Below are positions 33,707 through 50,764 of a stretch of 64,000 nucleotides of DNA, one piece after another. The translations under genes were made by a program, and so were the position numbers. Source of the stretch: Halobacterium wangiae. GTDB taxonomy: Archaea > Halobacteriota > Halobacteria > Halobacteriales > Halobacteriaceae. The stretch lies in contig NZ_CP089588.1 in NCBI RefSeq assembly GCF_021249345.1, positions 2,046,001 to 2,110,000 of the forward strand. Reading direction: 5' to 3'. How positions within the stretch are numbered: position 1 is the first letter of the stretch; each line of letters begins with the position of its first letter. The notes under the pieces are model-generated. The model was not told the DNA's origin, searched no databases, and worked only from the letters and a program-made list of their open reading frames with translations.

Positions 33707-36700
33707 TCAGTCATCACTCTTGAGGAGAGTGTCCCGAACGTATTTTAGTGAATACGCGTGCGTGAACCCTGGCTCGGTGATCCGGTATTGGCGGGGCGGA
33801 GTCTTCTGGTTGTATTCTTTGTGTACTCGTGGCTCACCCTGGTTGGGTTCGCGGAGGGCATCAACGAGTTTGTGGCCGTCGCGCTGAGTCATCACCACCC
33901 AGATCGAGGCTTCTGGGTCACAACCAGCCATCTTATCGTAGTCCGTGAGCACGGCCTCACGGTAATCATGATTCAGACGCTCGACCTCCCCACACACCAC
34001 GACCTCCCCTTCCTCATTTATCGCGGCGACGTCGAGGCGGTGGCCATCATCAAGTTCGTAGTATGGGGTGGCTTGGTAGTATGGGGGGGCTTGGGTGGCA
34101 CTGGAGTCGGGGTTCTCGACGAATTCCTGGGTGATCCATTCATCGAGGACGTGCACGCCGACGATGTGCTGGCTCGTCTCATCCAAATCACCCTGGCCAT
34201 GCCCATAATCGAGGCCCTCCCGGTAGGGCTCACTGATGGTTTCTCGGCCGCTGGGGGTGATGCTGTAGAGCTGCTGGGGGTGCGCCCCATCATCCCTGAG
34301 GAGGCCAGCCCGGACGAGTTCCTGCGTCTGGGTTTTGGTGAGGCCGACGTATTCTTGGAGGCGGAGCATGCTGTCCTCGACGATGTTGTACTCGAGGGGG
34401 TCCGTCCGGAACTGCATCGCGTCATGCACCACCTGAAGAAACAATAACTCGCGAAGACTCCATTCCGTGGCCTGAATCTCCTCGGGGCTGAGTTTCAAGT
34501 TCACCCCGCAAACCGGGATGTCACTTGGGTTGATGTCTTGGAGGCTGTGACAGCACTGGATCGCGCGCTTCATCCCCCGACTCGTGGGATTGTACCGGCT
34601 CTCACACGCCCCACACACGAGAGCGTGCCGCGACTCATCATACCCAACGCACCCCGGCAAGCGCTTCGTATACGGTAGAAGGGAATCCACGCGTAAGGCC
34701 TCCCCACTAGGGTCTTCGTCCTTGGTGGGTGGCGTGGGTTCGTGCTGAGTGAGCCCAAACTCCTCTCTCGTAACGCGCTTGCGCTCGATGAGCGCGGCCG
34801 CGAAACCCACTTGATCAGTGAGGGGTTGGGTGCTTGCGGGGTGACCGGGCGGCGCGGGCAGGGATTCCCCGAGGAAGGGTCGGGGGGTTTCTTCGGCGTA
34901 GGCGGCGCCGAGGCGCAGGAGCCATTCGCCGGCTCCGAGGGCGCGGAGTCGCGCGCCAACCTCACTGGGTGGCATCCTGGGGGTTGCAAGGGCTTTCTCG
35001 AGGTCGCGGTCGATGCGGACGTTCCCAACGACGAACGTCGCCGTCTCATTCAACACTTCGTGATACGTGTTCGTGTTCTCTGATTGGAGTTGGCCCGGGA
35101 ACTGGACGCCCAGCGCCATTCCGAGCCCGAAGGACCGGCCCTGTGAAAGCAACGTATCCATCAAGGTCGTGTTCGCGACGCCCGCGGACTCATCGAGGTA
35201 CACGTTCACCGTCGACAACCCACCCCCACCACCGTCCACTTCGTCCTCCACAACCCCAGTGTCCTCAACAGCCCTAGTGTCCTGCACAGTCTCCGAGTCC
35301 TCTACAGTCTCCGAGTCCTCAACAGCCCCAGTGTCCTCTTCATCCCCTGAGTTCTCCCCTTCAGGATTCGCGTCTGTGAGCTCTGGGGATTCCTCGCCCA
35401 CCATCCGAGTTTGTTCTCGCCGTATTTTGAGTGCGCTCCAGAGCTCGGAGAGAATCACCATCGTGAGCGTGCGCTTCGCCCCCGAATCCATACTCCCAAA
35501 ATCAAACACCACCACCGCATCCTCATCATCCAGTACCTCAGTCAAGTCAAAACCTACTCCGTCTTCTTTTTGGGTGTGGTTGAAGACGGGTGCGAGTCGG
35601 CCGTCGGTTGCGATGTGCTCGACGCGGCCCGCGGCGCCCTGCATGATCTGGGAGAACACCCGGGGTTCGTTACTCGTGAGGCGCTCAAAGTACTCCTGGA
35701 GAGCGTCATCCGTCGTGGGTGGCCCCGCCTGCTGAGCCTGCGTATGACCAAGCGCGCCCTGTAAGTCCCTGTGACTGAAGGCATCACTACCATGAATGGG
35801 GTCGAAGAGCGCGCGAACGTGATTCGTGATCACAAGCGGCGCAACCGTCGCTTGGCCGTAGCGGTCCGCGCCCATGATTCCCTCGAGGATCTCCTCGTAG
35901 TGACCCGCCTTCCGCGAACGCGCCTCCTCCCTGGGCACCCCCGCCTCGAAGAGGCCGCGAATATCGAAAAACGAGAACGCCGGCAAAACCCGAGTGAGAT
36001 CAAAGTAATAGACGTCCTCGAGGCTACCCGTCGCCTCGTAGTGAGTCATGCAGTACTCCCGGGCGAACCCGTCGCCCTTGTGGTCAAGAATGATTCCGGG
36101 CCCGCTTGTCCCCAGGGTGTTCGCGAGCGCGCCGCTCGCCATGAGCGTGGACTTCCCCGACCCACTCGACCCAACATAAACGACGTGGCGGCGCTGTAAT
36201 CCTGAATCAACATAGAGTGCTTGATTATGGGGTTGGCGGTCGTGCGTAAGCGGTATACTCACCGGGAGGCCGGGTGGTCCGTACTGGGTGAGTTGCTGGG
36301 GTGGGGGAAGGCGTAGGCCCGTGCGCTCGCTTCGCTGAACCGTGAGCGCGCGCTGCCCCGCTGGCGTAAGCCCACCCCCATCAAGAAGACACAACTCAGG
36401 GAGCTCCCGGGGGGACACAATGAGACCCCGACTCTCATTAGGGGTAGTGGGGAGGCGTGATCTTAGGGTTGTGTAGGTTGGCCCGTAACACACTAGATTC
36501 AAGAGGTCATCGAGGACCCTCGAGCCAGGTGGGAGTCGACCGGTGTGGAGTTCGTTGTCGGTCCTGGTGCGGCCGTGGATGGTGTGGTGGCGGCCACCCA
36601 GCCCTCCGAATGCGCGGGCGAGCCGCTGGGCGACCCGGTCCGCGCGCTCTGGTTGATCCTTCGTGAGGGCGACCGCGCGCGCCGACACCACCAACCCGCG

Positions 36701-37543
36701 CTTCGCATCCCGCCCCCGAATCCCATCAATCCGTGCCTGATCCCCCAACGAGGGTTCGTACGCCCGACGATCCTCCCGGGACCTCGGTGAAATGACTTCC
36801 AGGAGTCGTGACCCAAACGAACCCACGCCCTCCTCAAGTTCTCTCGCATAGACCTCAGCACTACTTGAGTAGTCCTGGCCGGCTTGACACACCACCTGAT
36901 AGAGCACGGGGAGCCTTGCGTCCCGCATCGCCTCAACCACCGACACCAACCCCACCCGCCCACTAGACTCGATCCGTGTTTTCTCGTCGAGGAATCTCCC
37001 TGTTTCTGTGATTGGAGTCATCCAGTCATCCCGGCGAGTTGTTCTCCCGAGGTACTCGACGCCCGCAACATACGGACTCCCAGGCGCACCACCAGAATAC
37101 TCTAGACCTGGGGTGAGTTGGGTGGGGTGAAACAACACGGGCTCGAGTTCGTAGGAGTCCGGGAAACACACCCGCAGAACGCCCTCAAGATCCCCACTAA
37201 ACTCTGGCATCGATGCCCGCACGAGGTACCGGATTCGCGCGTCAGCGCCACCATCAGAGACGAGTAACCACTCCACGATGGGAACACGAGATTGTCCTCG
37301 GAGTCTCGATACTAGTCCTCTCTGAGTCGTCTCACGCAACAATGACGAGAGGAGGTCCATCGCCTGCCCGACCGCCCCCGGGTGTAGTTCTGTCCCTGAG
37401 GGCCGAATCTCAACGTACTCCCGAACACCACTCAGTTCATCCTGGCCCAGACTCACGTCACCACCCACTCCATACAAGGATTCCCGAGTCCTCGGAGCGT
37501 CACTGCCGGGGTCGTCAGTCGCCACGCCACCCAACCAAACCAC
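33707..37543 (-). CDS. VirD4/TraD-like (HerA/FtsK-superfamily) ATPase
   Basis: A 1278-residue plasmid-type ATPase, GTG start at 37543. The Walker A motif GSSGSGKST lies at 458-466 and a Walker-B-like VNVYLDESAG near residue 780; GFGLGMALGVQFPGQL-like sensor sequence follows, as in coupling proteins of type IV secretion. Between them lies an acidic repeat insert (EDTGAVEDSETVEDSETVQD, continuing). The C-terminal 300 residues contain a Cys pair region (CGACESRYNP), a winged-helix-like segment (GLTKTQTQELVRAGLL) and a nuclease-like end (LDVAAINEEGEVVVCGEVER). Such proteins couple DNA to a conjugation channel. It probably belongs to an integrated conjugative plasmid. Confidence 0.82.
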   Translation of the reverse strand: MVWLGGVATDDPGSDAPRTRESLYGVGGDVSLGQDELSGVREYVEIRPSGTELHPGAVGQAMDLLSSLLRETTQRGLVSRLRGQSRVPIVEWLLVSDGGADARIRYLVRASMPEFSGDLEGVLRVCFPDSYELEPVLFHPTQLTPGLEYSGGAPGSPYVAGVEYLGRTTRRDDWMTPITETGRFLDEKTRIESSGRVGLVSVVEAMRDARLPVLYQVVCQAGQDYSSSAEVYARELEEGVGSFGSRLLEVISPRSREDRRAYEPSLGDQARIDGIRGRDAKRGLVVSARAVALTKDQPERADRVAQRLARAFGGLGGRHHTIHGRTRTDNELHTGRLPPGSRVLDDLLNLVCYGPTYTTLRSRLPTTPNESRGLIVSPRELPELCLLDGGGLTPAGQRALTVQRSERTGLRLPPPQQLTQYGPPGLPVSIPLTHDRQPHNQALYVDSGLQRRHVVYVGSSGSGKSTLMASGALANTLGTSGPGIILDHKGDGFAREYCMTHYEATGSLEDVYYFDLTRVLPAFSFFDIRGLFEAGVPREEARSRKAGHYEEILEGIMGADRYGQATVAPLVITNHVRALFDPIHGSDAFSHRDLQGALGHTQAQQAGPPTTDDALQEYFERLTSNEPRVFSQIMQGAAGRVEHIATDGRLAPVFNHTQKEDGVGFDLTEVLDDEDAVVVFDFGSMDSGAKRTLTMVILSELWSALKIRREQTRMVGEESPELTDANPEGENSGDEEDTGAVEDSETVEDSETVQDTRAVEDTGVVEDEVDGGGGGLSTVNVYLDESAGVANTTLMDTLLSQGRSFGLGMALGVQFPGQLQSENTNTYHEVLNETATFVVGNVRIDRDLEKALATPRMPPSEVGARLRALGAGEWLLRLGAAYAEETPRPFLGESLPAPPGHPASTQPLTDQVGFAAALIERKRVTREEFGLTQHEPTPPTKDEDPSGEALRVDSLLPYTKRLPGCVGYDESRHALVCGACESRYNPTSRGMKRAIQCCHSLQDINPSDIPVCGVNLKLSPEEIQATEWSLRELLFLQVVHDAMQFRTDPLEYNIVEDSMLRLQEYVGLTKTQTQELVRAGLLRDDGAHPQQLYSITPSGRETISEPYREGLDYGHGQGDLDETSQHIVGVHVLDEWITQEFVENPDSSATQAPPYYQATPYYELDDGHRLDVAAINEEGEVVVCGEVERLNHDYREAVLTDYDKMAGCDPEASIWVVMTQRDGHKLVDALREPNQGEPRVHKEYNQKTPPRQYRITEPGFTHAYSLKYVRDTLLKSDD

Positions 37544-37624
37544 TCACGATGCACGGCCTCCCAACCCACGTACACACGCGAACCACGCCCACCGGACGCG
37601 AGTCCCTGGGTGTGCGACCCGGAG

Positions 37625-38005
37625 TCATCTCAGGCCCCCTCTGCGGGGGTCCCCTCGCTCATACATGACGAGGCTCTCGCCCGGGTAGCGCTGAGTAATC
37701 CACTCCAGTAACGCATCCAAACACTCCCCAAACTCAGCCAGCTCCGAGTCCCGGACTGATTCAATGACGCTCACGGACTCCCACTCACCCAAACCCGGGT
37801 CAAACCCAGAAAGATGCGCGCCACCACCAAACCCGAGATATATTCCGATCACTTCCATCCGCCCACTCCCCTGCCCCCCACTCTCCGCCTTGAGACCAAT
37901 AAGTGGGGCTGTATGAACAAACGTCTCCACCTGATTCCGTAACTCCAGAACCTCCTGTACCGAGAGTGGCCGCGAAGGAAACTCGGGCCCCGACTCCGAG
38001 GACAT
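37625..38005 (-). CDS. Small hypothetical protein upstream of the TraD-like gene
   Basis: A 126-residue protein, ATG at 38005 (MSSESGPEFPSRPLSVQEVL). It is Gly/Glu-rich with a helical N-terminus (ELRNQVETFVHTAPLIGL) and a short alpha/beta C-terminus (ECLDALLEWITQRYPGESLV). The stop is 82 nt before the GTG of the large ATPase, so the genes are likely one operon. The 3' end contains a G/C palindrome (ccccctctgcggggg). No family recognised. Confidence 0.55.
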   Translation of the reverse strand: MSSESGPEFPSRPLSVQEVLELRNQVETFVHTAPLIGLKAESGGQGSGRMEVIGIYLGFGGGAHLSGFDPGLGEWESVSVIESVRDSELAEFGECLDALLEWITQRYPGESLVMYERGDPRRGGLR

Positions 38006-38179
38006 ACCCCCTCCAGAGAAGCCACCCAGCATAACCATACCCACCACATACATACCAACTCAAGCACTCCTACTCACCACACTCCCGGGGCCTTCCAGAA
38101 CAGTCACCTTGGGCGACCTCCTGTATTGGGTCCCCATCCATGAAACAGGATCCTGGGGACTAGCGTGCGGTTCTGTGTA

Positions 38180-38554
38180 TTAATCGCAGTGACTCTGTAG
38201 TATCTCGATCGCGCCGCCACTAGTCACTGTAACGTGGAGCTCAATTGCACCGCAACTCCCGACATTGAGATCGTCATTCCGAGATTCTTCACCGTCAACG
38301 TTGACGGTCACACCGTAGGTACCGCCACCAAAGGCGTCCGAATACTCCACTGACTCCGAGGCATTCAACTCGACTTCTCGCTCAAACTCCGTCTCCGAAT
38401 CGTCGGTGAGTTTCACCGTAATCTGGTGACTGGTATCGTCATCATTGCGAACGAGAATACTCCCACCGGGATTCGATGAAATCCCCCCGAAACAACCCGC
38501 TGAAAGGCCAAGTGAGGCGAAGGCAACCGATCGCACCACCGTCCGTCGTTTCAT
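38180..38554 (-). CDS. Lipoprotein, hypothetical
   Basis: A 124-residue exported lipoprotein. From the ATG at 38554 it begins MKRRTVVRSVAFASLGLSAG with a twin-Arg-like start and a lipobox ending at the Cys of LSAGCFGG. The mature part is an Ig-like beta-sandwich pattern (GSILVRNDDDTSHQITVKLT, EVELNASESVEYSDAFGGGT). Such lipoproteins are common in haloarchaea and of unknown role. It is divergent from the lipoprotein gene at 38784, with repeat R1 copy b between them. Confidence 0.75.
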   Translation of the reverse strand: MKRRTVVRSVAFASLGLSAGCFGGISSNPGGSILVRNDDDTSHQITVKLTDDSETEFEREVELNASESVEYSDAFGGGTYGVTVNVDGEESRNDDLNVGSCGAIELHVTVTSGGAIEILQSHCD

Positions 38555-38640
38555 AGCCGAAAGTTCCTGGCTATCGGTAAGTGCCTTGTCTGTCTCACCC
38601 CCCAAACTGAATCAAGAAACACACCTGTACTACCGATAGG

Positions 38641-38670
38641 AGTAGTTGCTAACGCGGTTTCTTTATTCAG
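38641..38670 (+). repeat. 30-nt repeat R1, copy b
   Basis: Direct copy of 32177-32207 and inverted partner of 39305-39334. With the latter it flanks the lipoprotein gene at 38784 as an inverted pair. Confidence 0.7.
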
Positions 38671-38783
38671 AATTGGTCCTAAACTGGAGCGGCTAAATCA
38701 GTAAGTAGGGATGCGAGTTAGGCGGTGAATCAGTCGTTTTTCCGTGCCGAAAACATATATTTTGGCCAATCGTTGATGAGGGT

Positions 38784-39269
38784 ATGAATCGACGTAGATT
38801 CCTCACTCTTGTCGGGACGAGTGCGGTATCTGGGTCAGTAGTGGGTATTTCCGGCTGCCTGGGGCAAGCCCAAACAGACCCCCCTGAAACGACGACCGAC
38901 AACTTGAATTCGTCAACACCGAGCCCCAAACCGACTGCAGACCTACCTTCAATCACGAACTACCCATTTCGTTTCGGCCAATCGATAACGTTCCCCGAAG
39001 GTGGCGTATACGGATGGTTTTTCGACGGGTCATTCACGAAATCAGTAGACACTTCGGGTTCAGTTACGGGCAGTGGAAGCGTGTCTGCATATGTCACAGA
39101 GGAGAATCTGCAAGAGGCGAAGATCCCCTCCTCAGCTGTGAAGAAGGTGGAAGACGTAACGTCATTCAATTTTGAAAGCATCGAGGTCACCGATGGGAAC
39201 GGGACTGTGCTGATGAGCGTCGATAGTACTGCAACTATGAACCTGTCGGTAGAAGTAACTGAGATATAG
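38784..39269 (+). CDS. Tat-exported lipoprotein
   Basis: A 161-residue protein with a clear Tat signal and lipobox: MNRRRFLTLVGTSAVSGSVV, then GISGCLG. The mature chain starts with a Thr/Pro/Ser-rich linker and continues as a beta-rich domain (FRFGQSITFPEGGVYGWFFD). A TATA-like atatatttt at 38755-38763 suggests a leaderless transcript. It is flanked by inverted copies of repeat R1 (38641-38670 and 39305-39334), which may mark it as cargo of a small mobile unit. Function unknown. Confidence 0.8.
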   Translation: MNRRRFLTLVGTSAVSGSVVGISGCLGQAQTDPPETTTDNLNSSTPSPKPTADLPSITNYPFRFGQSITFPEGGVYGWFFDGSFTKSVDTSGSVTGSGSVSAYVTEENLQEAKIPSSAVKKVEDVTSFNFESIEVTDGNGTVLMSVDSTATMNLSVEVTEI

Positions 39270-39304
39270 CCAATCTATGCTGACCCGCTGTTCCACTTCT
39301 CACT

Positions 39305-39334
39305 CTGAATAAAGAACCCGTATTGGCAACTACT
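39305..39334 (-). repeat. 30-nt repeat R1, copy c (inverted)
   Basis: The minus strand reads agtagttgccaatacgggtt then ctttattcag, matching copy b with a few changes. Confidence 0.65.
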
Positions 39335-39901
39335 GATAGTACTACCCCACGAACCCTACAAAGCCCTGAGTGAGATACTAACCTACTGCTTCGAAAGCCC
39401 TCAACCGCTCGCGGCCGCTCGCGGACATCTCTCACATTCGTTCGAGAGTGGCCCACGAGCAACCACGAACCGGTCTCGCCCTTTCGGAGTCCACCAGGAC
39501 ACCGTTGCGCAAGCTCCCGATGCGTGTGGTTGTATGGGTCGTAGTGTCGGTTCGGTGCGCTCGCCCGACCAGCGTAGTCCGCATCACGAACAGCGACCAC
39601 TACTGTTCGTTCCTCGCTCGCCCGCTTCGGGACGCCAGCATCAAGTGCAGTATCGGTCCCATGGACCGAGTACTGACTTGAAGCTGGACGCTCGGGCGGA
39701 CTACCCAGGACGCGCGCACCTGGCTGCGTAATCCCTCCCTTGGGTGTGCGCCACTCGCGCCCCCGTGGGGCGCTCGTGAAGGCGCGAGCGGCGCACACAC
39801 TAACTGATAGAGTAAGTTGGACTCGGTGTCATCGAAGAAACCACGAGTGGAGTCGTGGTTGTCGGGCGTCACAAGAACGCCTTCGGAACCAGTGAGTTCC
39901 A
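39335..39901. other. Interval before the OB-fold gene
   Basis: About 570 nt. Readings here have poor composition and I call no gene. It is GC-richer than the preceding lipoprotein genes and contains short G/C inverted repeats (for example ctcgcggccgctcgcgga near 39407). It may be remnant plasmid DNA. Confidence 0.35.
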
Positions 39902-40801
39902 ATGTCAAGTAAGCAAGCGCGTAGCAAGGTCGTTTCGGTCGAAGAACAAACGTTTGAGCAAACAGGCGAGCAGGCGGTCGATGAGGACGGGTTCGAACTC
40001 GTCGATGAGACTCCAGAGTTCCGGGCGACGGTGGAGCTGGAGATCCAGGCAAAAGTGGCCGCAAACCACTCAGATGGGCTGATTAGTACTCGTGGGGAGC
40101 GGATTCGTGGCGCAACCCTCGAAGAAGAAGAACGCATCAGGGGCCGGGAGGCTGAGTTAGAGCGCATTCGAGCGCGAGCTCTCCTGGGAAGTAAGGATGG
40201 GCGAGCAGAGCGGACACGAACGGTTGTCGCGAAGCAGAGCGTCGGGCGGCGTCGGGACTTCGAGGAGCGTGCTGGGAGTGTGGATCCGTGGGCGGACCCG
40301 AATCGCGGAGATCCCCGGGAAGCACTTACTCGAGAACAGTTGGCAGCGGTGAACGCAGAATCAGTGCGGTTAGCCAGGGCGCTAGATGGGTGGTCGCGAG
40401 CAGCAATCAGCCGACGACTCGCAGAACCCGTAGCCGATGGGGTGGACGTTACGAGTGCAGTCCTCAGTGTGTTCGAACAATTACAGACCGCGCCCGGGCA
40501 CGTGATTCCAATCGGGAAGCTCGAGGACGTCAACCGCAAGGAGGTGAGTATCGAGGGCCGAATCGAGGTATTGTGGAATCCTTCGCATCCGAGCATCGCG
40601 CAGGTCGGGCTAATCGAGGACGAGAGTGGGCGCGTGAAGTTCACGGTCTGGGAGCGCTCAAATCAACCAATAGTGCGGGAAGGCGAAGTAGTGCGGTTCC
40701 GGGGGGCTGCGAAGAACTGGTATGAGGGCCGGTGCTCACTCGCGTTGACGGGGTGGTCGCGAATTCACTTCCCAGAGCGCGACGCGTGGTGGGGCGAATA
40801 G
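39902..40801 (+). CDS. Plasmid-type OB-fold DNA-binding protein (RPA-like)
   Basis: A 299-residue protein. The N-terminal 120 residues are charged and helical (LEEEERIRGREAELERIRAR). The C-terminal 90 residues match an RPA-type OB fold (KEVSIEGRIEVLWNPS, QVGLIEDESGRVKFTVWERS, EGEVVRFRGAAKNWYEGRC). Family knowledge: related proteins are common on haloarchaeal plasmids and viruses and presumably bind single-stranded DNA. The ATG at 39902 gives MSSKQARSKVVSVEEQTF. It has no close operon partner but sits with other plasmid-type genes. Confidence 0.75.
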   Translation: MSSKQARSKVVSVEEQTFEQTGEQAVDEDGFELVDETPEFRATVELEIQAKVAANHSDGLISTRGERIRGATLEEEERIRGREAELERIRARALLGSKDGRAERTRTVVAKQSVGRRRDFEERAGSVDPWADPNRGDPREALTREQLAAVNAESVRLARALDGWSRAAISRRLAEPVADGVDVTSAVLSVFEQLQTAPGHVIPIGKLEDVNRKEVSIEGRIEVLWNPSHPSIAQVGLIEDESGRVKFTVWERSNQPIVREGEVVRFRGAAKNWYEGRCSLALTGWSRIHFPERDAWWGE

Positions 40802-40971
40802 CCGGAGCGGACTCCCTTTTTTGCGGTGTGCCGGACCAGTCCCGGCCCCGCCTCCCCACCCACCGCTCCGTGCTCGCTACGCTGCGCGCGCAGCCACAAC
40901 CTCAATCATGGGTGAAAGGGGGGCGCGGTAAGGCGGCTGCACTGGTGTTGAGAGCCGGGCCGTGTTTGTCT

Positions 40972-40985
40972 GCCCCCACAGGGGC
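40972..40985. promoter_or_regulatory. Palindromic leader element P1, copy a
   Basis: gcccccacaggggc, followed by G-rich sequence, 31 nt before the start at 41017. The same arrangement recurs at 49791 and 63774. Confidence 0.6.
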
Positions 40986-41016
40986 GGAGGGCACAACAGC
41001 ATGCCCTCGAACAACG

Positions 41017-41253
41017 ATGACTAACAAAAGAACACTCACAGCCCGTGAACGACTCCGAATACACCTCCGCGAAGCCCACCAAACAACCCGTTCCCCACTC
41101 GTCAAAGCACACCTCAACGCCGCACTAGAAGCCTGGAACGACCTGTCGCCGACACCCCTCCAAGAGTGCCCGGTCTGTGGGAAATTGGATTACCTGAGCG
41201 GATACAGCACCACGAATGTAGAGCCGAACGATAGCCCACGGCGGATTCACTAA
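41017..41253 (+). CDS. Small plasmid-type protein with CxxC motif
   Basis: A 78-residue protein, ATG at 41017 (MTNKRTLTARERLRIHLREA). Helical N-terminus and a single C-x-x-C (LQECPVCGKLDYLSGYS) that could form half a zinc site, perhaps as a dimer. Its start follows palindromic element P1 and it lies in the plasmid-like segment. The longer reading upstream is rejected because it has implausible composition. No function known. Confidence 0.6.
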   Translation: MTNKRTLTARERLRIHLREAHQTTRSPLVKAHLNAALEAWNDLSPTPLQECPVCGKLDYLSGYSTTNVEPNDSPRRIH

Positions 41254-41284
41254 GGGGTTCGTTCTTCTATGGCTTCTCGGTCAG

Positions 41285-42001
41285 TCAGTCTGTGTCGAAG
41301 GCAGCTTCGATTGCGTTCGACCACGAACCGAAGTGCCGGACGTACGTCGTATGACTATGTGAGCCATGATTATTCATATCCCGCTGAGATGGCTGTTTCC
41401 CGAGCTCACCAGCGAGCTCCACGAGATCCCTCAGTAACGTATCCTCGGTAAGGTCTGTTGGTGGTTCGAAGCCTGCTGCTTCGAGCGCCTCCTTCCAGGA
41501 CCCATACTCGCGGATGTACGTCGTCGGATCATACTTTCCTTGGTCTTCCATTTCGCGGAACGTCGGTCGCTTCTCGAGGGTCTCACCGAGCTCAATGAGT
41601 GCGGCCCGTAGTCTGGGTCGACCGATTGGTAAGTCGGCTCTAGTGGAGTCGAGGCCAGCCGCCTCGAGAGCGTTCGCCCATGAGTCGAAGTGGTTCTTGT
41701 ACGTCGAAGCCCAGTACACACCCTCGACGTTCATTTCCGAGACTGAGGGTGGGTGCCCAATCTCGTTGGCAAGGCGCTGGAGTTCCTCGAGTAGCTCCTG
41801 CTTTGTGGCGGCGGTTTGTGGTGGGCGTGGTTCGTAGCCGGCGGCCTCAAGGGCGTCCTGCCAGGACCCGAAGTAGGTGTAGTACGTGGAGGCACCGTAC
41901 TCGCCGTGGTCGCGGAGTTCCTGGAGGGTTGGCGGGCGACCATACTCGGCTGCGAGGCGGTCGATTTCTTCGAGGAGGTCGTCCTCGCTAAGGCTGGCCA
42001 T
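41285..42001 (-). CDS. Protein with four homing-endonuclease-associated repeats
   Basis: A 238-residue protein from the ATG at 42001 (MASLSEDDLLEEIDRLAAEY). It consists of four repeats of about 57 residues, each with L-x-x-L-A-x-E-x-G-x-P-P/S, then the pattern Y-x-x-x-F/Y-G-S/D-W-x-x-A-L-E-A-A-G (for example YFGSWQDALEAAGYEP). This is the HNH/homing-endonuclease-associated repeat, a small DNA-binding unit. No nuclease domain is attached, so the protein probably binds DNA as a regulator or chromatin-like factor. The repeat spacing is regular and the reading is intact. Confidence 0.8.
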   Translation of the reverse strand: MASLSEDDLLEEIDRLAAEYGRPPTLQELRDHGEYGASTYYTYFGSWQDALEAAGYEPRPPQTAATKQELLEELQRLANEIGHPPSVSEMNVEGVYWASTYKNHFDSWANALEAAGLDSTRADLPIGRPRLRAALIELGETLEKRPTFREMEDQGKYDPTTYIREYGSWKEALEAAGFEPPTDLTEDTLLRDLVELAGELGKQPSQRDMNNHGSHSHTTYVRHFGSWSNAIEAAFDTD

Positions 42002-42162
42002 AGGTAGTGTTGGGGAACCCTCGGCGAATATCCCACTTAAAGCTTCGGGGTGAGGGGTGTTTCCACGGGGAGCGCAGACGGGGGTTTCAGGCCGCGTATC
42101 CCTAGACATCGTGTGAACGCGTCGCACGGATTCATGGCGTGAATGGGTGGAAATAACACAAA

Positions 42163-42170
42163 GTATTTAC
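42163..42170 (+). promoter_or_regulatory. TATA-like element of surface glycoprotein gene 1
   Basis: gtatttac about 25-30 nt upstream of the leader region that is conserved with gene 2 (TATA-like gcatttaac at 46754-46762). Confidence 0.5.
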
Positions 42171-42189
42171 CAATACCGTCTGTTTTCTC

Positions 42190-42276
42190 GTACACCCCTA
42201 CCCATGGTGCCCGTCTAGTACCGCCCTACCCTGGGCGCGAGGGACGTAGGTGCCGATGCAGACAACGATTCAAACC
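42190..42276 (+). promoter_or_regulatory. Conserved 5' leader of surface glycoprotein gene 1
   Basis: From about 42190 to the start codon the sequence is nearly the same as 46783-46872 in gene 2: cacccctacccatggtgccc, gtagtaccgccc, a small gccc/gggc hairpin with different loops, and acgtaggtgccga. A structured leader of about 86 nt is likely, perhaps controlling mRNA stability. Confidence 0.6.
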
Positions 42277-44745
42277 ATGACAGAAACTACAGACAAGCTC
42301 CGCGCGGTCTTCCTGACAGCGCTGATGATCGGCAGCGTCTTCGCTGCTGGCATCGCGTTCTCCGGAGGCGCCGCTGCGGCAGCAGACAGCATCACGCTGG
42401 ATTCCGACGTTGTTGAATCTGGCAATGCTATTACCGGTACAGCTACTAATGACAGTGTCAGTGACGACACAATTTATGTCGTCGTTGACGAAGACGGAGA
42501 CGGCGAGTTCGACAGCACCGAACCGACCGACAGTTTCACTGCCGACTCCACTGGTAGTGGGACTTTCAGCGTAACTAGCTCCACTGTGGGCACTCACACT
42601 GTCTACGCTCTCAACGGGTCGTCCGCACCGACCGATGGCGATTCCATTGACAGTGAAGCTAGCACAACTGTGACCGTCACTGACGGCGATGACGGCACGA
42701 CCTTCAACGACGGCGGCATCGTCTTCCAGGGCCAGTCGGCCGCTTACGATGCCTTCGACGCTGACGGTAACTACGCTGACAACTACACGCTCTACGAGCG
42801 TATCGACGGCTCCACGGGTTCGCCCGTTCGTGAGCTGGACGCCGAGGGTGGCTGGGTGAACGCGTCTACTTCCGGTCTCGACACCGGCACGACGTACTTC
42901 ATCAGCAACGACGGTCAGAACCCGACCAATGCTGACGCGACGTTCACGATTCGTCAGCAGGACTTCAGCACCAGCTTCGCTACGAGTTCGGTCGCGAACA
43001 ACGCTGAGGTTGACCTGACGATCGAGTCCACGAACCGTCAGAACAACGCCTACGACGTCTACGTGACGTCCAGTGGTCTCGACGACAGCGAACTCGTCGA
43101 TGTCTTCGCCAACTTCGGTTCGACAAACGTTGACGTCAACGGCGACGACGACGTCGACGGCGACGGTATCCAGATTACCGTTGACGCTGGCGGCGATGTC
43201 ACCGAAGGTGCGGACTTCACTGGCATCGACGCTGGTGAGTACTCCTTCGACTTCGACGTGACGGACACGACCGCTTCCGACAGCGGCTCTGTCAACGTCA
43301 CGGACGCAGCCGAAGCGAACAGCCAGTTCGAGTCGATCACGCAGACGGCCCGTGGTGACATCGCCACGGTCAACGTCTCGCTGACCAGCGCGACCCAGGC
43401 GACCGTCAAGCTCGGGTCCGAGAGCTCTGGCTACCTCGCGAACGTCACGGTCACGGACTCCAACGAGGACGGCTACGCGACGTTCAACATCAACACGTAC
43501 ACGATGGGGAACAACACGGCCGCGAACGCCTCCGAGCCTGGTGTTGCGTTCTACACCGGCGCTGAGGGCGACACCGTGGACTCCGTCGACATCGGTACGG
43601 AAGACCTTGAGAACCCGATTGCGGACGGTAACTACCGCGCGACGGTTCGCACCGGTGCGGACTCGACCGCGACCGCGAACGACGTGAGCCGTCTCTCGAT
43701 CGTGCCGGCTGACGGTGTGACCGGCCAGACAGTCTGGACGGCACCCGGCGGCAGCGTCGACGACATCGCTGACGTGCTGAGCGACGCGCCGCTCTCCGAG
43801 GATGACTCCATCGCCGAGGGCGACTACGTCATCCACGAGGTTACCGCGAACGGTGTCTTCGGCGTTCTCCAGAACGCCTCCACTGTGAACGACACTGAGG
43901 CGCTGCTGAACGCGTCCGCGAATGGCGAACTCTCGCTTTCGGTCGAGCAGACCGAAGCGAGCACGCGCCAGAACCGCAACGCGAAGACGCTCAACTACAC
44001 GGAAGCGCTCGACAACGGCAACGCAGTTGCAGTCACTGACTCTGCGAACAGCACGGTGTACATCGTTGCTGACCTCGCAAGCGTCAACACGGAAAGCGCC
44101 ACCGGCATCCAGTGGGACCAGGACGTCTACAACGCGTCGGTCACGCTGAACGCCGCCTCGAACCTCGTCAGCGCGAACTCCACGGCGGCCGCCGAATTCT
44201 CGGCCGACTCCCTGGAGACCTCGCTCTCGATGAACGAGTACGAGGTCGAATCCGCGAGCAACCAGACCATCACGGCCGAGACGACGGCCGCTGACGGGAC
44301 TGCGTTCAACGTGCTCATCGAGTCGATCGAGACACCCGGCGACGGCTTCATCAAGCCGGACAACGGGGCAACCGCCGAGAACGGCGAGATTAACGCTCAG
44401 GTCGACTTCAGCGACGTCGAAGTCGACTCCACGTTCTCCATCGACCTTGAGGACGCGGACGGCAGCCCGGTTGACGACGCGACTGGTACGGTTGTCGAGT
44501 CCACTGGTGGCACGACGACGACCACCGCGGACGACACGACGACCACCACGACCGCGGACGACACGACCACCACGACCACCGAAGAGCCGGACGACACCAC
44601 CACGACCACCGCGGGCACTGGCGGTGACACCGGCGGTGACGACGGTGGCGACGACGGCGGCTCGGACGGCGGGATCCCCGGCTTCGGCATGGGTATCGCG
44701 CTGGTCGCCATCCTCGGCGCTGCGCTCCTCGCACTGCGCGAGTAA
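42277..44745 (+). CDS. Surface (S-layer type) glycoprotein 1
   Basis: An 822-residue secreted glycoprotein. I choose the ATG at 42277 (MTETTDKLRAVFLTALMIGS), which matches the start of the known Halobacterium Csg precursor; upstream GTG/ATG codons are not conserved in gene 2. It has a signal peptide to about residue 34, a unique N-terminal domain (about 35-145), and a body starting at TTFNDGGIVFQGQSAAYDAF shared with gene 2. Many N-x-S/T sequons and a Thr-rich stalk (TTTTTADDTTTT) follow, then a PGF-type anchor GIPGFGMGIALVAILGAALL. Family knowledge: such proteins build the cell wall and are processed by an archaeosortase. The long minus-strand reading here is a shadow. Confidence 0.88.
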   Translation: MTETTDKLRAVFLTALMIGSVFAAGIAFSGGAAAAADSITLDSDVVESGNAITGTATNDSVSDDTIYVVVDEDGDGEFDSTEPTDSFTADSTGSGTFSVTSSTVGTHTVYALNGSSAPTDGDSIDSEASTTVTVTDGDDGTTFNDGGIVFQGQSAAYDAFDADGNYADNYTLYERIDGSTGSPVRELDAEGGWVNASTSGLDTGTTYFISNDGQNPTNADATFTIRQQDFSTSFATSSVANNAEVDLTIESTNRQNNAYDVYVTSSGLDDSELVDVFANFGSTNVDVNGDDDVDGDGIQITVDAGGDVTEGADFTGIDAGEYSFDFDVTDTTASDSGSVNVTDAAEANSQFESITQTARGDIATVNVSLTSATQATVKLGSESSGYLANVTVTDSNEDGYATFNINTYTMGNNTAANASEPGVAFYTGAEGDTVDSVDIGTEDLENPIADGNYRATVRTGADSTATANDVSRLSIVPADGVTGQTVWTAPGGSVDDIADVLSDAPLSEDDSIAEGDYVIHEVTANGVFGVLQNASTVNDTEALLNASANGELSLSVEQTEASTRQNRNAKTLNYTEALDNGNAVAVTDSANSTVYIVADLASVNTESATGIQWDQDVYNASVTLNAASNLVSANSTAAAEFSADSLETSLSMNEYEVESASNQTITAETTAADGTAFNVLIESIETPGDGFIKPDNGATAENGEINAQVDFSDVEVDSTFSIDLEDADGSPVDDATGTVVESTGGTTTTTADDTTTTTTADDTTTTTTEEPDDTTTTTAGTGGDTGGDDGGDDGGSDGGIPGFGMGIALVAILGAALLALRE

Positions 44746-44815
44746 CGCACGCTGAGACAACTGAGTAACACCATTTTTCGCGCGCTACGCCCGACAGCGG
44801 CTGCGCTATTCTATC
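44746..44815 (+). terminator. Conserved 3' flank and T-run of surface glycoprotein gene 1
   Basis: After the stop, cgcacgctgagacaactgag and a T-run (cattttt near 44773-44779) are shared with the flank of gene 2 at 49492-49530. Likely the transcript end. Confidence 0.55.
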
Positions 44816-44909
44816 TGCCAGGGGAGAGAAGCGACCTACTCCCACCAGAGAACTCTAATTGGTGCGTTCGTCGATGACGAGTTCGGCCCCTGTGCGGATG
44901 GTGTTGGGA

Positions 44910-45093
44910 TCAGCCATCGTCATCGTCACTCTCCTCGCGTGGGTCTTGTTTGAGTCTCCAGAAGTCGGTTGGTTCGTGGACGTACTCGATGCAATCGGCG
45001 GCGTGGAGTCGGTCGAGGTGTTTCGTGACCGTTGGCCGTGTGGAGTCGGCTTCGTCGACGAGGTAGCCGGTTGTCGCGTACCCGTCGGTGTCT
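44910..45093 (-). pseudogene. Fragment of a winged-helix regulator
   Basis: In one frame the minus strand reads ATTGYLVDEADSTRPTVTKH, then LDRLHAADCIEYVHEPTDFW, a typical haloarchaeal winged-helix C-terminal half ending in a normal stop. No proper N-terminal half is joined to it; upstream the frame runs through unrelated viral-like DNA. It is a truncated regulator gene. Confidence 0.5.
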
Positions 45094-45818
45094 CCATCTG
45101 GTGGGTGGAACCCGACGGCAGCGGCGGCTACAGCGTGGAGTGGACGCAGCTCGGCCCGCACCCGACGGAGATCTCCACGGAAGCCCTGGACAACTCGTAC
45201 TCCGAGGACACGAGCGACCGCGTTCAGAAGGCGCGGGTGTTCGGGTTGAGCCGGGAGTTCTCGGCGACGACCACCGCCTAGCACGACACGGAGGTCGCGC
45301 TCTCGCACAGCCCGCTGGTGAACGCGAGCGAGCGCGTCGAGGACCCGGGGACGGGCGAGGTGTTCAGTACGGCGCCGACTACGTCCCGCGGGGGAACGCA
45401 GGCACCATCGAGACATTATCGACGGGCGACATCACGGACGGCCAGGACCTCCGCGTGACCTACGAGTACAGCCTTCACTCGAGCTACACGGCGGCCGGCG
45501 CTGGCGCCGACCCGCAGAGCTGGCGGTTCGACTTCAACATCCCTAACCGAATGTGGATGCGGACAGGCAGCACTGTACCTCGTCCAGCGCCTCAAGGGTC
45601 CGGTCGTTGAGGCGGAGCTCGTAATGCAGAAAGCGCCCGTGGGGTGGAGCGTGGGGACGCTATCGACCCGGGCGTGATTCCGGGCGACCCGAATCAGATC
45701 CGGAGCCTCGAGCAGCCGACAGAGCGGGTGCGTGTGCAGTTGGAGAATTGGAAGTCGGTCCAGGATGTCGTCGCGGATCTTCGCTCCCAGATCACTGGTA
45801 ACACGCGGCAGGTTTGAG
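45093..45818 (+). pseudogene. Degraded viral-type structural gene
   Basis: Pieces in several frames translate sensibly: WWVEPDGSGGYSVEWTQLGP, YSEDTSDRVQKARVFGLSRE, then after a TAG HDTEVALSHSPLVNASERVE. Next, in another frame, come DYVPRGNAGTIETLSTGDIT and DLRVTYEYSLHSSYTAAGAG, then YLVQRLKGPVVEAELVMQKA. At least one stop and two frameshifts break it. GC is high, unlike the flanks. The pattern looks like a haloviral surface or tail protein left from a provirus. Confidence 0.6.
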
Positions 45819-46045
45819 TGGCCAGGTCGGACACTCTCTGGGTCGTAAGTACGATTCAGGCCTGCGTCAGCGCGTTTGACTGGTTCGTGTTCGAGTAGCG
45901 TTTCATCTTCCCGACTGTCATGACAATCGAAGGACTTTTATTATTCTACTTGTCTTGCCTTCGACATGGATTGGTCTCCATTCAGCCTGACGCACCTCCG
46001 CGGTAAACAGAGCCCAGAGCAGCCCTGTTACCGCCGAATAGACAA

Positions 46046-46675
46046 ATGACGACTGCGTTCGAGCGACTAAAAGCCCGACCGCGGACAGATGTCTCTCGCG
46101 GTGACTTCTCCCTCACTGAGCGGGCTAATGTCCGGAAACTCGACGTTACTGGTAGTGCAGGCCGCTCAAGCAAAGGCGACTACATCGGATCATTCAGCCC
46201 CGTCTACTACATCGAAGGTGACACAGAGCGCGCTGCTCGCGTCTTCGCCGAGGTCAATGCAGATGAACTGTCACGGGTTGACTTCTCAAAACGGAATGTT
46301 GTGTCCTCAAGCGTCTCTCAGGAACAGTATGATCTAATCCTCCACCACGCCGGCGAGCGTGTACGCGAGGTATACCCAACGGTAGTCCGAGAGGACCGTC
46401 GTAGTGGGGTGACGTGGATGCTCGATCGGGGGCACTACGAGGAGAACCCTGAAAAGCGGTATACGACAGGTACGCGGATGGTTGCAAAGGTCCCTCCTGA
46501 GGTGTCTCTCCGAGATGTTTTCGAGGAGAGTTCAACACCGATCACATCTAGTGATGTATCTGAAGCAGGCATCCTTGGTGGTGTGGGCCAAGTACTCGAC
46601 TATTTCCGGGTTGCGAGTGACTTCGCGTGTTCACCGGTAAGTATTGACGGTGAAATCGCGGTCACGAAGGCCTGA
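46046..46675 (+). CDS. Hypothetical protein between the surface glycoprotein genes
   Basis: A 209-residue soluble protein, ATG at 46046 (MTTAFERLKARPRTDVSRGD). The pattern is mixed alpha/beta: GSFSPVYYIEGDTERAARVF, SQEQYDLILHHAGERVREVY, MVAKVPPEVSLRDVFEESST. No signal peptide or membrane helix. An AT-rich stretch (ttttattattctac near 45938-45951) upstream may serve as promoter, giving a leader of about 80 nt. I recognise no family. Its place between two related surface-layer genes is probably the result of insertion into the duplicated locus. Confidence 0.65.
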   Translation: MTTAFERLKARPRTDVSRGDFSLTERANVRKLDVTGSAGRSSKGDYIGSFSPVYYIEGDTERAARVFAEVNADELSRVDFSKRNVVSSSVSQEQYDLILHHAGERVREVYPTVVREDRRSGVTWMLDRGHYEENPEKRYTTGTRMVAKVPPEVSLRDVFEESSTPITSSDVSEAGILGGVGQVLDYFRVASDFACSPVSIDGEIAVTKA

Positions 46676-46782
46676 ACCCGTCGCTTTCTCCTGGTATGCC
46701 GATAGGATTCTGGCAGCATGGTATACCTTCTCCCCCACTGATGTTATCAGAAAGCATTTAACTTCCCGTTGAGCATATACAC

Positions 46783-46872
46783 CTACCCCTACCCATGGTG
46801 CCCGTTTAGTACCGCCCGGCATAGGGCGCGAAGAACGTAGGTGCCGACGCAGTGCAGACAACAATCCAAACC
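46783..46872 (+). promoter_or_regulatory. Conserved 5' leader of surface glycoprotein gene 2
   Basis: Near copy of 42190-42276, with TATA-like gcatttaac at 46754-46762. The gccc/gggc hairpin is kept while its loop differs, which supports a structural role. Confidence 0.6.
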
Positions 46873-49491
46873 ATGACAAGCAATTCAGACAAACTCCGCG
46901 CGGTCTTCCTGACAGCGCTGATGATCGGCAGCGTCTTCGCTGCTGGCATCGCGTTCACAGGAGGCGCCGCCGCGATTACGAGTACATCCGCTGACAACGT
47001 CAATGTCGCGGACGGTACTCAAGACCAGACTGTATCGTTCACCGCTGAGGCAGGAACAGACTTCGACGGTACTGCCACAGGCACTGCCAGTATCACCTTT
47101 GACGAGGTCCAGAACCTCGCATTCCAGGGTGTGACCCTTACGAGCGCCGACCAGGGGGGCAGTGACGTAAGTAGTGCTGTCACTGTTTCTCAGAGCGGCG
47201 GGACGGTCACCGTCGATATCAGTGAAGCAGACGTTAGCAGTGGCACGAATATCGCCATCGTGCTAACGGTAAGCGTTGACGCGTCCAGTTCGAGCGCCAC
47301 GACTGGTGCAGCCTACTCGATCGCGTCCGACGGTGGCTCGCTCGGCTCTGGTAGCACGGCCACTGACGCTACGTTCGACATCACCAACAACCCAGGTGAC
47401 GGTACTGACGATACGACCTTCAACGACGGCGGCATCGTCTTCCAGGGTCAGACCGCAGCCTTCGATGCTGCTGACGGTGACACCAACGGCGACTCCTACT
47501 CTGCCGGTGGTTACACGCTTTACGAGCAGACGAGCTCCGACACGGGCTCGCCCGTTCGTGAACTCGACACCAACAACGGCTGGGTGAACGCGTCGACGTC
47601 CGGTCTCGATACCGGCACGACGTACTTCATCAGCAACGACGGCTCGAACCCGAGTTCCGACGCTGACGTGACGTTCACGATTCGGGAGCAGAACTTCGAT
47701 GCGTCCTTCGACGGTGACTCGGTCACCAACGAGGGCGACATCGACCTGACCTTCGAATCCACGAACCGTCAGAACGAGGAGTACACGGTCGTCGTGATGT
47801 CTGAGGGCCTCGACGACGAGGACCTCGTCGACATCTTCGACGACAACTACAACGGCGTGAGCAATATCGACGTCAACGATGACGACGATATCGACGGTGA
47901 CGGTATCGTCATCACCGTGCCCGCTGGTGGCGACGAGACCGCCGCTGCGGACTTCACGGAGATTGACACTGGCTCGTACGACTTCGACTTCGTGGTTGCT
48001 GACACGACCGCGTCCGACAGCGCGAGCGTCAACGTCACTGACGCCGCTGACTCGAACACCGAGTTCGTCGAGGTCAGCACCACAGCCCGTGGTGACATCG
48101 CCACGTTCAACATCTCGCTGACGAACGCCGAGCAGGCAACTGTCCAGATCGGTTCGGATGGTGTTGGTTACCTCGCGAACGTGACGGTGACTGACGATGA
48201 TGGCGACGGCTACGCTGCCTTCAACGTCAACACGTACACGATGGGTAACAACACAGCCGCTAACGCGTCCGATCCCGGTGTTGCGTTCTACGGAGTTGCT
48301 GACTCCGAGACGATCGTCAACTCCGTCGATTTCGGCACGCCTGACCTCGACGAACCCATCGCCGACGGTACTTACCGCACGTCCGTGCGCTACGGCGACG
48401 ATGTGACCGACACGGCCAACGACGTCAGCCGCCTCGCCATCAACCCGGCGGACGGCGTGACCGGCCAGAACATCTGGACTGCACCTGGCGGCAGCGTCAC
48501 TTCCCTCGCTGACGTGCTCGCGGACGCGCCGCTCTCCCAGGACGACTCCATTGCCGAGGGCGACTACCTCATCCACGAGGTCGAAGCCAGCGGTGTCTTC
48601 GGCATCCTCCAGAACGCCTCCGCGGACGACCCGCGACAGGCGCTGCTGAACGCGACCGAGAGCGGTGAGCTCGCCCTGACGGTCGAGCAGACTGACGCGA
48701 GCACGCGCCAGAACCGTGACTCGAAGACGCTGAACTACACGGAAGCGCTCAACGACTCCGAGGCCATCGTGTCCACGGACGCTGCGAACAGCACGTTCTA
48801 CATCGTGACTGATCTCACCGAGATCAACACGACCGAGGACGACCGCAGCATCCGGTGGGACAACGACGTCTACAACGCGTCCGTCTCACTGCAGGAAAGC
48901 AGCCTGCTCGTGAGCGAGAACGCTTCGGCGTCCGCTGAATTCTCGGCTGACACGTGGGAGGCTTCGCTCTCGATGGACGAGTACGAAGTCGAATCCGCGT
49001 CCAACCAGACGATCGAAGGCACGTCGACTGCTGCTGACGGCACGTCGCTGAACGTGCTCGTCGAGTCGACGGAGACGCCCGGTGAAGGCTTCATCTTCCC
49101 GGAGAACGAAGCAGTCGTCCAGGATGGCGAGTTCAACGCCTCTGTCAACTTCAGCGGCGTTGAGGTCGACTCCGAGTTCGCCATCAGCCTCGAAGACAGT
49201 GATGGTGAGGTCGACGACGCGACTGGTACGGTTGTCGAGTCCGTTGACGATGGTACGACGACGACCACCGACGACGGTACGACGACCACGACCGCGGACG
49301 ACACGACGACGACCGCGGACGACACGACCACCACCACCGCTGACGACACCACGACCACGGAGGGTCCGGGTGGCGACACGGGCGGTGACGACGGTGGCGA
49401 CGACGGCTCGGACGGCGGGATCCCCGGCTTCGGCATGGGTATCGCGCTGGTCGCCATCCTCGGCGCTGCGCTCCTCGCACTGCGCGAGTAA
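46873..49491 (+). CDS. Surface (S-layer type) glycoprotein 2
   Basis: An 872-residue paralogue of the protein at 42277-44745. ATG at 46873 (MTSNSDKLRAVFLTALMIGS). The signal peptide and final 30 residues match gene 1 almost base for base. The mature N-terminal domain (about 35-180; STSADNVNVADGTQDQTVSF, YSIASDGGSLGSGSTATDAT) is unrelated to that of gene 1. Homology starts at TTFNDGGIVFQGQTAAFDAA and continues to the Thr stalk (TTTADDTTTTADDTTTTTAD) and the PGF anchor. Both genes are intact, so either or both may be expressed. The exchanged N-terminal domain may face the outside and alter phage or antigen recognition. Confidence 0.88.
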   Translation: MTSNSDKLRAVFLTALMIGSVFAAGIAFTGGAAAITSTSADNVNVADGTQDQTVSFTAEAGTDFDGTATGTASITFDEVQNLAFQGVTLTSADQGGSDVSSAVTVSQSGGTVTVDISEADVSSGTNIAIVLTVSVDASSSSATTGAAYSIASDGGSLGSGSTATDATFDITNNPGDGTDDTTFNDGGIVFQGQTAAFDAADGDTNGDSYSAGGYTLYEQTSSDTGSPVRELDTNNGWVNASTSGLDTGTTYFISNDGSNPSSDADVTFTIREQNFDASFDGDSVTNEGDIDLTFESTNRQNEEYTVVVMSEGLDDEDLVDIFDDNYNGVSNIDVNDDDDIDGDGIVITVPAGGDETAAADFTEIDTGSYDFDFVVADTTASDSASVNVTDAADSNTEFVEVSTTARGDIATFNISLTNAEQATVQIGSDGVGYLANVTVTDDDGDGYAAFNVNTYTMGNNTAANASDPGVAFYGVADSETIVNSVDFGTPDLDEPIADGTYRTSVRYGDDVTDTANDVSRLAINPADGVTGQNIWTAPGGSVTSLADVLADAPLSQDDSIAEGDYLIHEVEASGVFGILQNASADDPRQALLNATESGELALTVEQTDASTRQNRDSKTLNYTEALNDSEAIVSTDAANSTFYIVTDLTEINTTEDDRSIRWDNDVYNASVSLQESSLLVSENASASAEFSADTWEASLSMDEYEVESASNQTIEGTSTAADGTSLNVLVESTETPGEGFIFPENEAVVQDGEFNASVNFSGVEVDSEFAISLEDSDGEVDDATGTVVESVDDGTTTTTDDGTTTTTADDTTTTADDTTTTTADDTTTTEGPGGDTGGDDGGDDGSDGGIPGFGMGIALVAILGAALLALRE

Positions 49492-49535
49492 CGCACGCTG
49501 AGACAACTGAGTAACACCATTTTCTTTCGCGCGCT
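49492..49535 (+). terminator. Conserved 3' flank and T-run of surface glycoprotein gene 2
   Basis: Same cgcacgctgagacaactgag flank as gene 1 followed by cattttctttcg. The shared flanks show that the duplication included the terminator. Confidence 0.5.
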
Positions 49536-49790
49536 ACACCCGATAGCGACAGCGCTACCGCCAACTAGTATACTAGGGAGGCTGGCCACCGACTGGATAC
49601 AGCACCCTCAAAGCCCGGGTTCACCCCAAGAACTCAGCTCTATCAAACTAGTACTCGCGCCGCACTCAAGCATGCGTGTGTGGGGGAGTACTGGTCTATC
49701 TCATTGCCCACCATCGGCGCGTTAGCATACCAACCCAGGCGAGTACACTGGTCCGAGTGCTATCACTCAATGCTCCCACCCTGAGTTTTC

Positions 49791-49804
49791 GCCCCCATAG
49801 GGGG
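49791..49804. promoter_or_regulatory. Palindromic leader element P1, copy b
   Basis: gcccccatagggggtggcgg, preceded by gagttttc, 42 nt before the ATG at 49847. Very like the copy at 63774-63788. Confidence 0.65.
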
Positions 49805-49846
49805 TGGCGGGGCGCTCAACCAAACCGAGCGTCCCTCCAAATTACA

Positions 49847-50764
49847 ATGTCACAAACGAGTGATCCCGGAGTCTGCTTCGAGGATTTTGGGACGCGGCGA
49901 GACGAGATGCATCAAACCATCAACGAGTGGATCGAGGACCTCGCGGGGAGTGTTGGTGAGGCGCGAGCGAGCGCAGAGTTCCAAGACTGGCTCAACGTTC
50001 AGAGCCAGTTCCACGACTACTCCTATCGGAATACGCTCTTGATTAGGACGCAATGCCTAGGCGCCTCGAGGGTTGCGGGCTATCACACCTGGCAGAACGA
50101 GTTCGAGCGTCATGTGAAGGTGGGTGAGTCAGCAATCTGGATTTGGGCACCCATCATCACCAAGCAATGCCCCAACTGCGGGAAATCCCCCACCCACCAC
50201 GAGCGCGGTGACTGCGAGTACAATGACCTCCCAACGGATGAGTGGCCGAGGGGGTTGGTTGGGTTCCGGCCAACTGCGGTGTTTGACGTCTCCCAGACCG
50301 AGGGCGAACCCCTTCCCGAGCTTGACACGGAAGCCCGGGGGGACGCCCTCGGACTCGTGACCGCCCTCATAGACGCTGGTGAGACTCTCAATATCGACGT
50401 TTGTCTTGTGGAGGCGGGTGAGTGGGAGTACGGCGACGCACTGGGCGTCTGTACGCCGGGGAGTTCGGGGGATTCTCGGGCATTCGTGGAGGTGAAGGCG
50501 TGCTCGAATCAGGCTAGTATGGCGGGGACGCTCATCCACGAGTACGCGCACGCACTCCTCCACACCGACATCGATGAGACCGAGCGGTCGAAGCGTGAGG
50601 TTGAGGCTGAGGCCGTAGCGCACGTCGTCGGGCGCTACTACAACCTCGACACATCGGGCTCTGCGTTCTACCTCGCCGCGTGGGAACCAGACAACCCCGA
50701 GATTGTTCGCGAGCGCCTTGAGCGAATTACTCGAACCGCAACTAGAATCATCGACGCCCTCTAA
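49847..50764 (+). CDS. ArdC-like antirestriction protein with zinc-peptidase domain
   Basis: A 305-residue protein, ATG at 49847 (MSQTSDPGVCFEDFGTRRDE). Residues 20-110 match the ArdC N-terminal single-strand-DNA-binding domain (FQDWLNVQSQFHDYSYRNTL, GYHTWQNEFERHVKVGESAI). A Cys-rich insert (CPNCGKSPTHHERGDC, 108-123) follows, and HEYAH at 231-235 with a downstream Glu (REVEAEAVAHVVG) forms the zinc site of the C-terminal peptidase-like domain. ArdC proteins of bacterial plasmids protect incoming single-stranded DNA from restriction. This, with the TraD-like gene, supports a conjugative or plasmid origin. The upstream element P1 is shared with other plasmid-type genes. Confidence 0.85.
   Translation: MSQTSDPGVCFEDFGTRRDEMHQTINEWIEDLAGSVGEARASAEFQDWLNVQSQFHDYSYRNTLLIRTQCLGASRVAGYHTWQNEFERHVKVGESAIWIWAPIITKQCPNCGKSPTHHERGDCEYNDLPTDEWPRGLVGFRPTAVFDVSQTEGEPLPELDTEARGDALGLVTALIDAGETLNIDVCLVEAGEWEYGDALGVCTPGSSGDSRAFVEVKACSNQASMAGTLIHEYAHALLHTDIDETERSKREVEAEAVAHVVGRYYNLDTSGSAFYLAAWEPDNPEIVRERLERITRTATRIIDAL

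Follow-up and report, generated by a model that had tools for sequence, protein, structure and literature searches.

The present analysis supports a model in which an optional domain, located between the signal peptide and the csg-like body of haloarchaeal S-layer glycoproteins and here termed the prefix, has been exchanged by recombination between lineages over evolutionary time. Specifically, the 64,000-nucleotide window that was analysed, which lies within the complete 3.11-Mb genome of Halobacterium wangiae (G000), contains two tandem S-layer glycoprotein genes of the archaeal csg type, A and B, whose products begin, after a shared signal peptide, with unrelated prefixes. Comparison of these genes with those of other haloarchaea makes exchange of the prefix between lineages a well-supported reading. 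The fuller interpretation, in which tandem csg-like bodies carry an exchangeable prefix that is swapped by recombination and the likely benefit is an altered virus receptor, is one that we consider probable.

Both ORFs are intact and are arranged in tandem on the forward strand, where the sequence-only reading had placed them, with gene A at 42277–44745 (822 aa) and gene B at 46873–49491 (872 aa). Their products lie above the cut-offs of TIGR04207 (halo_sig_pep; 45.5 bits for A and 45.6 for B, cut-off 24.6) and of the PGF-CTERM sorting signal (30.2 and 30.6 bits, cut-off 24.5), and DUF7827 is found in both. The structure of H. volcanii csg, 7ptp, is the top match for both structure models (E 3.8e-15 for A and 5.5e-17 for B), with Z (VIA) values of 12.4 and 13.5 and the next rows at about 9; profile similarity to csg is limited to the C-terminal part. 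The scores against NF041335 (ArtA-dependent S-layer glycoprotein), 199.9 bits for A and 172.2 for B, fall far under the equivalog cut-off of 1100 bits, and A and B are therefore divergent homologs rather than members of that equivalog. They are the only TIGR04207 proteins in the genome and, by signature, the sole candidates for its main lattice protein. Elsewhere in the genome, a third anchor-like stretch (G000:C1:1708399-1708530, L003) with 93% amino acid identity to the end of B lies on a separate open frame of roughly 423 aa.

The two genes had been described as having in common a leader, signal peptide, body, Thr stalk, anchor, and 3′ flank, and three runs of exact identity bear this out. 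The first, of 63 nt (42298–42360 in A, 46894–46956 in B), falls within the 34-residue signal peptide (42277–42378 in A, + strand; TIGR04207 E 4e-12). The second, of 35 nt (42697–42731 and 47413–47447, + strand), is the junction at which D1 starts (TTFNDGGIVFQ). The third, of 120 nt (44658–44777 and 49404–49523, + strand), covers the PGF-CTERM anchor, recognized by profile, together with the stop codon and 3′ flank. The conserved Ig-like body occupies 42929–44502 (+) in A, as delimited by comparison and trees, with a model pLDDT mostly of 75–90, and 47413–49242 (+) in B, as delimited by profiles, alignment with A, and a structure model; a Thr-rich stalk can be read from the translation of A at 44503–44664 (+). 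The body is shared in the sense of homology (about 66% amino acid identity, and roughly 65–88% nucleotide identity per 60-nt block) but is not near-identical: the bodies are 34% diverged and that of A is closer to another species, G008 (about 79–82.6% amino acid identity, 82.6% over the 42929–44502 segment), than to that of B. With bodies so far from near-identical, any prefix swap would have to be old.

Between the signal peptide and the junction, A has 106 residues (residues 35–140; 42379–42696, +) and B has 146 (residues 35–180; 46975–47412, +), in place of the 110 and 145 first estimated, and their lack of relationship is confirmed: the local alignment score of 57 is at the level of shuffled sequences (61.6 ± 9.0), 339 of 500 of which scored as high. 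The prefixes of A and G008, which share family F9, are homologous (0 of 500 shuffles as high) at about 35% identity. Alignment of A with B maps a sharp edge at 42696/42697, with identity at chance level until 42696 followed directly by the 35 identical bases, and the gradual breakpoints by which the sequence-only reading would have recognized plain divergence were not seen. The prefix is an extra domain ahead of D1 that is missing from many haloarchaeal S-layer proteins. The start of D1 was recognized by a motif like VFQGQ or FWQGQ, which is present in most recognizable haloarchaeal S-layer proteins, and in the 42 proteins where the motif is clear, the number of residues before D1 is bimodal (1–32 in 16 proteins and 108–310 in 26, with none between), which indicates that the prefix is optional. 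The 26 prefixes fall into 15 families with little overlap (BLAST, E < 1e-3). Neither the A nor the B prefix gave anything convincing in a Pfam scan, and both are weakly modelled, with pLDDT mostly below 60; naming of the prefix fold was dropped on these grounds. Base composition was likewise rejected as evidence of import: in 14 of 15 Halobacterium genes no body window of equal size has a GC3 as low as that of the prefix, yet most S-layer genes, prefix-less ones included, are GC3-poor over their first 100 mature codons.

Exchange between lineages is argued by shared prefixes on unrelated bodies combined with mosaic adjacent sequence. Homologs of the B prefix (family F8) are present immediately after the signal peptide in S-layer proteins of G219 and G173 and in a surface protein of G062 (E 8e-16 to 3e-5), all three of which belong to other haloarchaeal families, and are absent from the other 12 Halobacterium genomes searched. 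By this comparison, gene A has a prefix of the type seen in its nearest relative, G008, and gene B an odd type that is otherwise found only in other families. A different prefix is common to G004, the csg-type protein of G009, and G209 (49–57% amino acid identity, E 1e-36 to 2e-47), although their bodies give no BLAST match or match at 33%; the G004 body is of the same class as those of A and B, contig 3 of G009 encodes a csg body, and G209 represents another family. Within a single genome, the tandem pair of G009 has later body blocks that are 75–100% identical at the amino acid level and prefixes that are 21–35% identical, and copies in G002 and in three genomes of family f8 (G144, G234, and G117) also have swapped prefixes or have none. 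The search of relatives for further N-terminal cassettes, which had been suggested as a check, thus revealed that prefix families recur across several haloarchaeal families on bodies that are only distantly related. Mapping of prefixes onto the body tree gives 23 changes, a count inflated by singleton families, and the argument relies instead on the four families found repeatedly on distant bodies.

The sequence next to the junction is mosaic. Informative sites among A, B, and G008 group A with G008 in the body, whereas those in the early D1 of gene A (42761–42928, +) group B with G008 (0 of 300 permutations), and a second, genealogical breakpoint is placed near 42930, about 230 bp beyond the junction. 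Similarly, the early-D1 tree splits ten Halobacterium proteins with 100/100 support and the remaining body rejects this split (dlnL 227, p-AU 1.6e-5), the clade tested having been named after its tree was seen. These discordant genealogies, and the fact that unrelated bodies carry prefixes of the same families, support the original proposal that recombination exchanges the N-terminal domain inside a conserved frame. The comparisons were made between species rather than between strains, and no swap was caught in progress. The best candidate for a recent exchange is the pair of G009 (L042, 8015–13587), an independent tandem arrangement with near-identical body blocks and unrelated prefixes, the difference extending into part of D1. 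In a Halorubrum-like genus (f4g25), the S-layer genes are in tandem but their prefixes are not swapped, and tandem copies therefore do not require swapping. Most pairs of that genus (L129–L138) have similar N-termini, and patches at mid-body and stalk diverge, down to 40% amino acid identity; variation in that genus thus sits elsewhere.

The ends of A and B have a history of their own. In the 3′ flank, five derived sites are common to A and B against G008, compared with 0 and 1 for the other groupings, and this suggests limited gene conversion between the two genes at their ends, of which the 120-nt identity run is a likely product. Conversion was rejected as the needed cause of signal-peptide identity, because the same 63 bases are identical in G008 as well and constraint explains them equally.

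Each gene has a TATA-like sequence and a full leader of its own upstream. The leaders are 87% identical over 68 nt and contain the same structured 5′ UTR element, located at 42194–42276 (+) for A (83 bits with the covariance model, with covariation) and at 46785–46872 (+) for B (81 bits). The element consists of three helices with conserved G-U pairs and strong covariation, namely a GGUGCC/GGUGCC stem and two inner helices, and ACCCCUACCC forms part of the S-layer leader and is a possible transcript start. All of its pairs are kept in 11 Halobacterium leaders, with compensatory changes present, and double-change cells number 119 versus 40 in shuffles when counted on an alignment fitted to the structure. 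The covariance model found 49 matches in 78 fetched loci, all 49 directly upstream of an S-layer start, and it matched 30 of 116 whole haloarchaeal genomes from several families, nearly always once. An Rfam search of the locus returned no match to the element. The shared leader thus defines a structured mRNA element that is tied to S-layer genes and is unlisted in Rfam, possibly one that acts in mRNA stability or translation.

The neighbourhood of the pair was assessed with synteny judged from fetched stretches. Divergent from gene A lies an HNH_repeat gene with four units (PF18780; 41285–42127, −), homologs of which are likewise divergently placed next to csg-type S-layer genes on secondary contigs in G005 and G009 (L074 and L046); it is a candidate linked regulator or mobile gene. 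Between A and B, the segment 44859–46040 holds only short overlapping ORFs with no Pfam match and resembles the remains of genes, left perhaps by an insertion or duplication event that created the pair, and it is followed by a 209-aa ORF (46046–46675), also with no Pfam match. Among the neighbours at 33707–41253 and 49676–50764 are a DUF87/HerA-like protein, an OB-fold protein, and an ArdC/IrrE-like peptidase, a setting that suggests a region which is mobile or was once carried on a plasmid.

In the mechanism that we propose, the conserved csg-like Ig-domain body would assemble and anchor the lattice, while the dispensable prefix between the signal peptide and D1 would be replaced over evolutionary time through recombination with DNA of other haloarchaea. 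The conserved leader, the signal peptide, and D1 or the body would serve as homology arms, and gene conversion would keep the ends of A and B alike; this exchange step is likely. In H. volcanii csg, D1 lines the sixfold pore (PMC8640222), and the six prefixes would therefore probably cluster at the hexamer axis, above the pore and away from most lattice contacts, a placement that rests on connectivity, the prefixes themselves being poorly modelled. Exchange of the prefix would then change the exposed face and leave the lattice contacts as they are. The benefit would be a changed receptor for viruses, with the second S-layer gene as a backup. The S-layer protein is the receptor of HFTV1 (PMC9973310) and of HRTV-DL1, and in an HRTV-DL1-resistant mutant one S-layer gene was lost and residues 45–46 were deleted in the other; the presence of two S-layer genes per genome has itself been proposed as an anti-virus strategy (PMC10544981). 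From these published escape mutants, virus escape through prefix exchange is plausible. The HFTV1 escape changes are located at residues 237–246, outside any prefix (PMC9973310), and hence do not point to a prefix. An antiviral purpose of the exchange is a reasonable inference only.

Among the alternatives, the one that fares best is that A and B are two functional paralogs forming different S-layers, for example according to growth condition, with prefixes that function in adhesion, mating, or adaptation to salt and not in escape from viruses. The promoter-like sequence and structured leader kept by both genes are as expected for such paralogs, a tandem arrangement of S-layer genes is common across the order, and differences in the S-layer and its glycans are considered to influence both mating and sensitivity to viruses (PMC5867893). 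However, the turnover of prefixes without turnover of bodies, and their presence or absence in close relatives, fit a changing antagonist better, and we regard this explanation as rather unlikely, noting that the argument from turnover bears on the purpose of the prefixes and not on their exchange.

Plain divergence, in which the N terminus evolved fast and under relaxed constraint after duplication, with no exchange, draws on the fact that prefixes can evolve fast, those of A and G008 being homologous yet far less alike (about 35% identical) than their bodies (79%). It is nevertheless very improbable, because in several pairs the prefix is better conserved than the body (57% versus 33% in G004/G209, 86% versus 72% in G002/G005, and 52% versus 35% in G005/G139), the closest relatives of the B prefix lie in other families rather than in Halobacterium, sharp edges are observed, adjacent segments give conflicting trees, and prefix homologs, contrary to what this explanation predicts, were found on unrelated bodies. 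Phase or antigenic variation, which the sequence-only reading had invoked and in which recombination among A, B, and silent prefix cassettes would let cells switch their expressed surface, can appeal to tandem copies with identical ends and differing outer domains, to identity tracts of 63, 35, and 120 bp that could serve as crossover points, and to the derived 3′-flank sites as a sign that some conversion happened, but we give it scarcely any credence, since the complete 3.1-Mb genome contains no prefix cassette beyond those of A and B (one weak match, E 0.007), no inverted repeats of at least 24 nt occur in 41200–50000, no recombinase family was recognized among the 20 neighbouring ORFs scanned, each gene has its own TATA-like sequence and leader, and the bodies differ by 34%, that of A being closer to another species than to B. 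Switching between A and B within one culture is thus unsupported by the sequence.

Exchange of prefixes between lineages, the reading we prefer, has several implications. What is exchanged is a single defined, optional domain, which precedes the lattice-forming body, has recognizable edges, and falls into recurring families. The old idea of virus-driven surface diversity thereby becomes directly testable, as adsorption should, if viruses drive that diversity, track the prefix and not the body, and prefixes offer simple typing of S-layer faces in genomes and metagenomes. More tentatively, and with somewhat less than even confidence, we suggest a community-wide haloarchaeal pool of interchangeable, serotype-like S-layer prefixes that would be acquired across genera via recombination in the leader, signal peptide, and D1. 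If this is true, each lineage shows viruses a new face at the sixfold pore while lattice assembly is kept, and tandem copies hold two faces at once.

Haloarchaeal S-layer variation is usually described as replacement of whole genes or islands or as mosaic recombination. Recombination of S-layer genes is known in Haloferax (PMC5867893) and Haloquadratum (PMC4535781). Judged against the open-access literature, the novelty appears to lie in the nature of the exchanged unit, a defined and optional prefix that belongs to families recurring across the order and is swapped even between tandem copies. H. volcanii csg (7ptp; PMC8640222) resembles A and B in its chain of Ig-like domains, signal peptide, Thr-rich stalk, and PGF-CTERM anchor, but its signal peptide runs almost directly into D1, whereas A and B have the extra prefix domain. 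The VARTIG system of the Thermococcales (PMC8416519) is similar in that an Ig-domain region of a surface protein is hypervariable by recombination between species, with no integrase identified. There, however, the variable domain is C-terminal, in a non-S-layer protein at a polymorphic-toxin-like locus, and the VARTIG survey reported no close match outside the Thermococcales; in A and B, which come from a haloarchaeon, the variable region is the N-terminal domain of a lattice protein, and conservation is highest in the C-terminal anchor. As in the present pair, Hrr. lacusprofundi, the host of HRTV-DL1, and Hfx. gibbonsii, the host of HFTV1, have two S-layer genes per genome, and in both the S-layer is the receptor and is altered in escape mutants. 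The changes in those mutants are deletions and small insertions, in contrast to the domain replacement described here. Finally, the S-layer protein of Haloquadratum walsbyi HBSQ001 carries an N-terminal extension of about 150 aa, which its authors linked to virus evasion (PMC3119063), and, as in A and B, its conserved S-layer body is preceded by an unmatched N-terminal stretch. That extension was reported as a single strain difference, whereas the prefixes analysed here belong to a recurring set of families, exchanged from body to body throughout the order and also among the tandem copies of a single genome.
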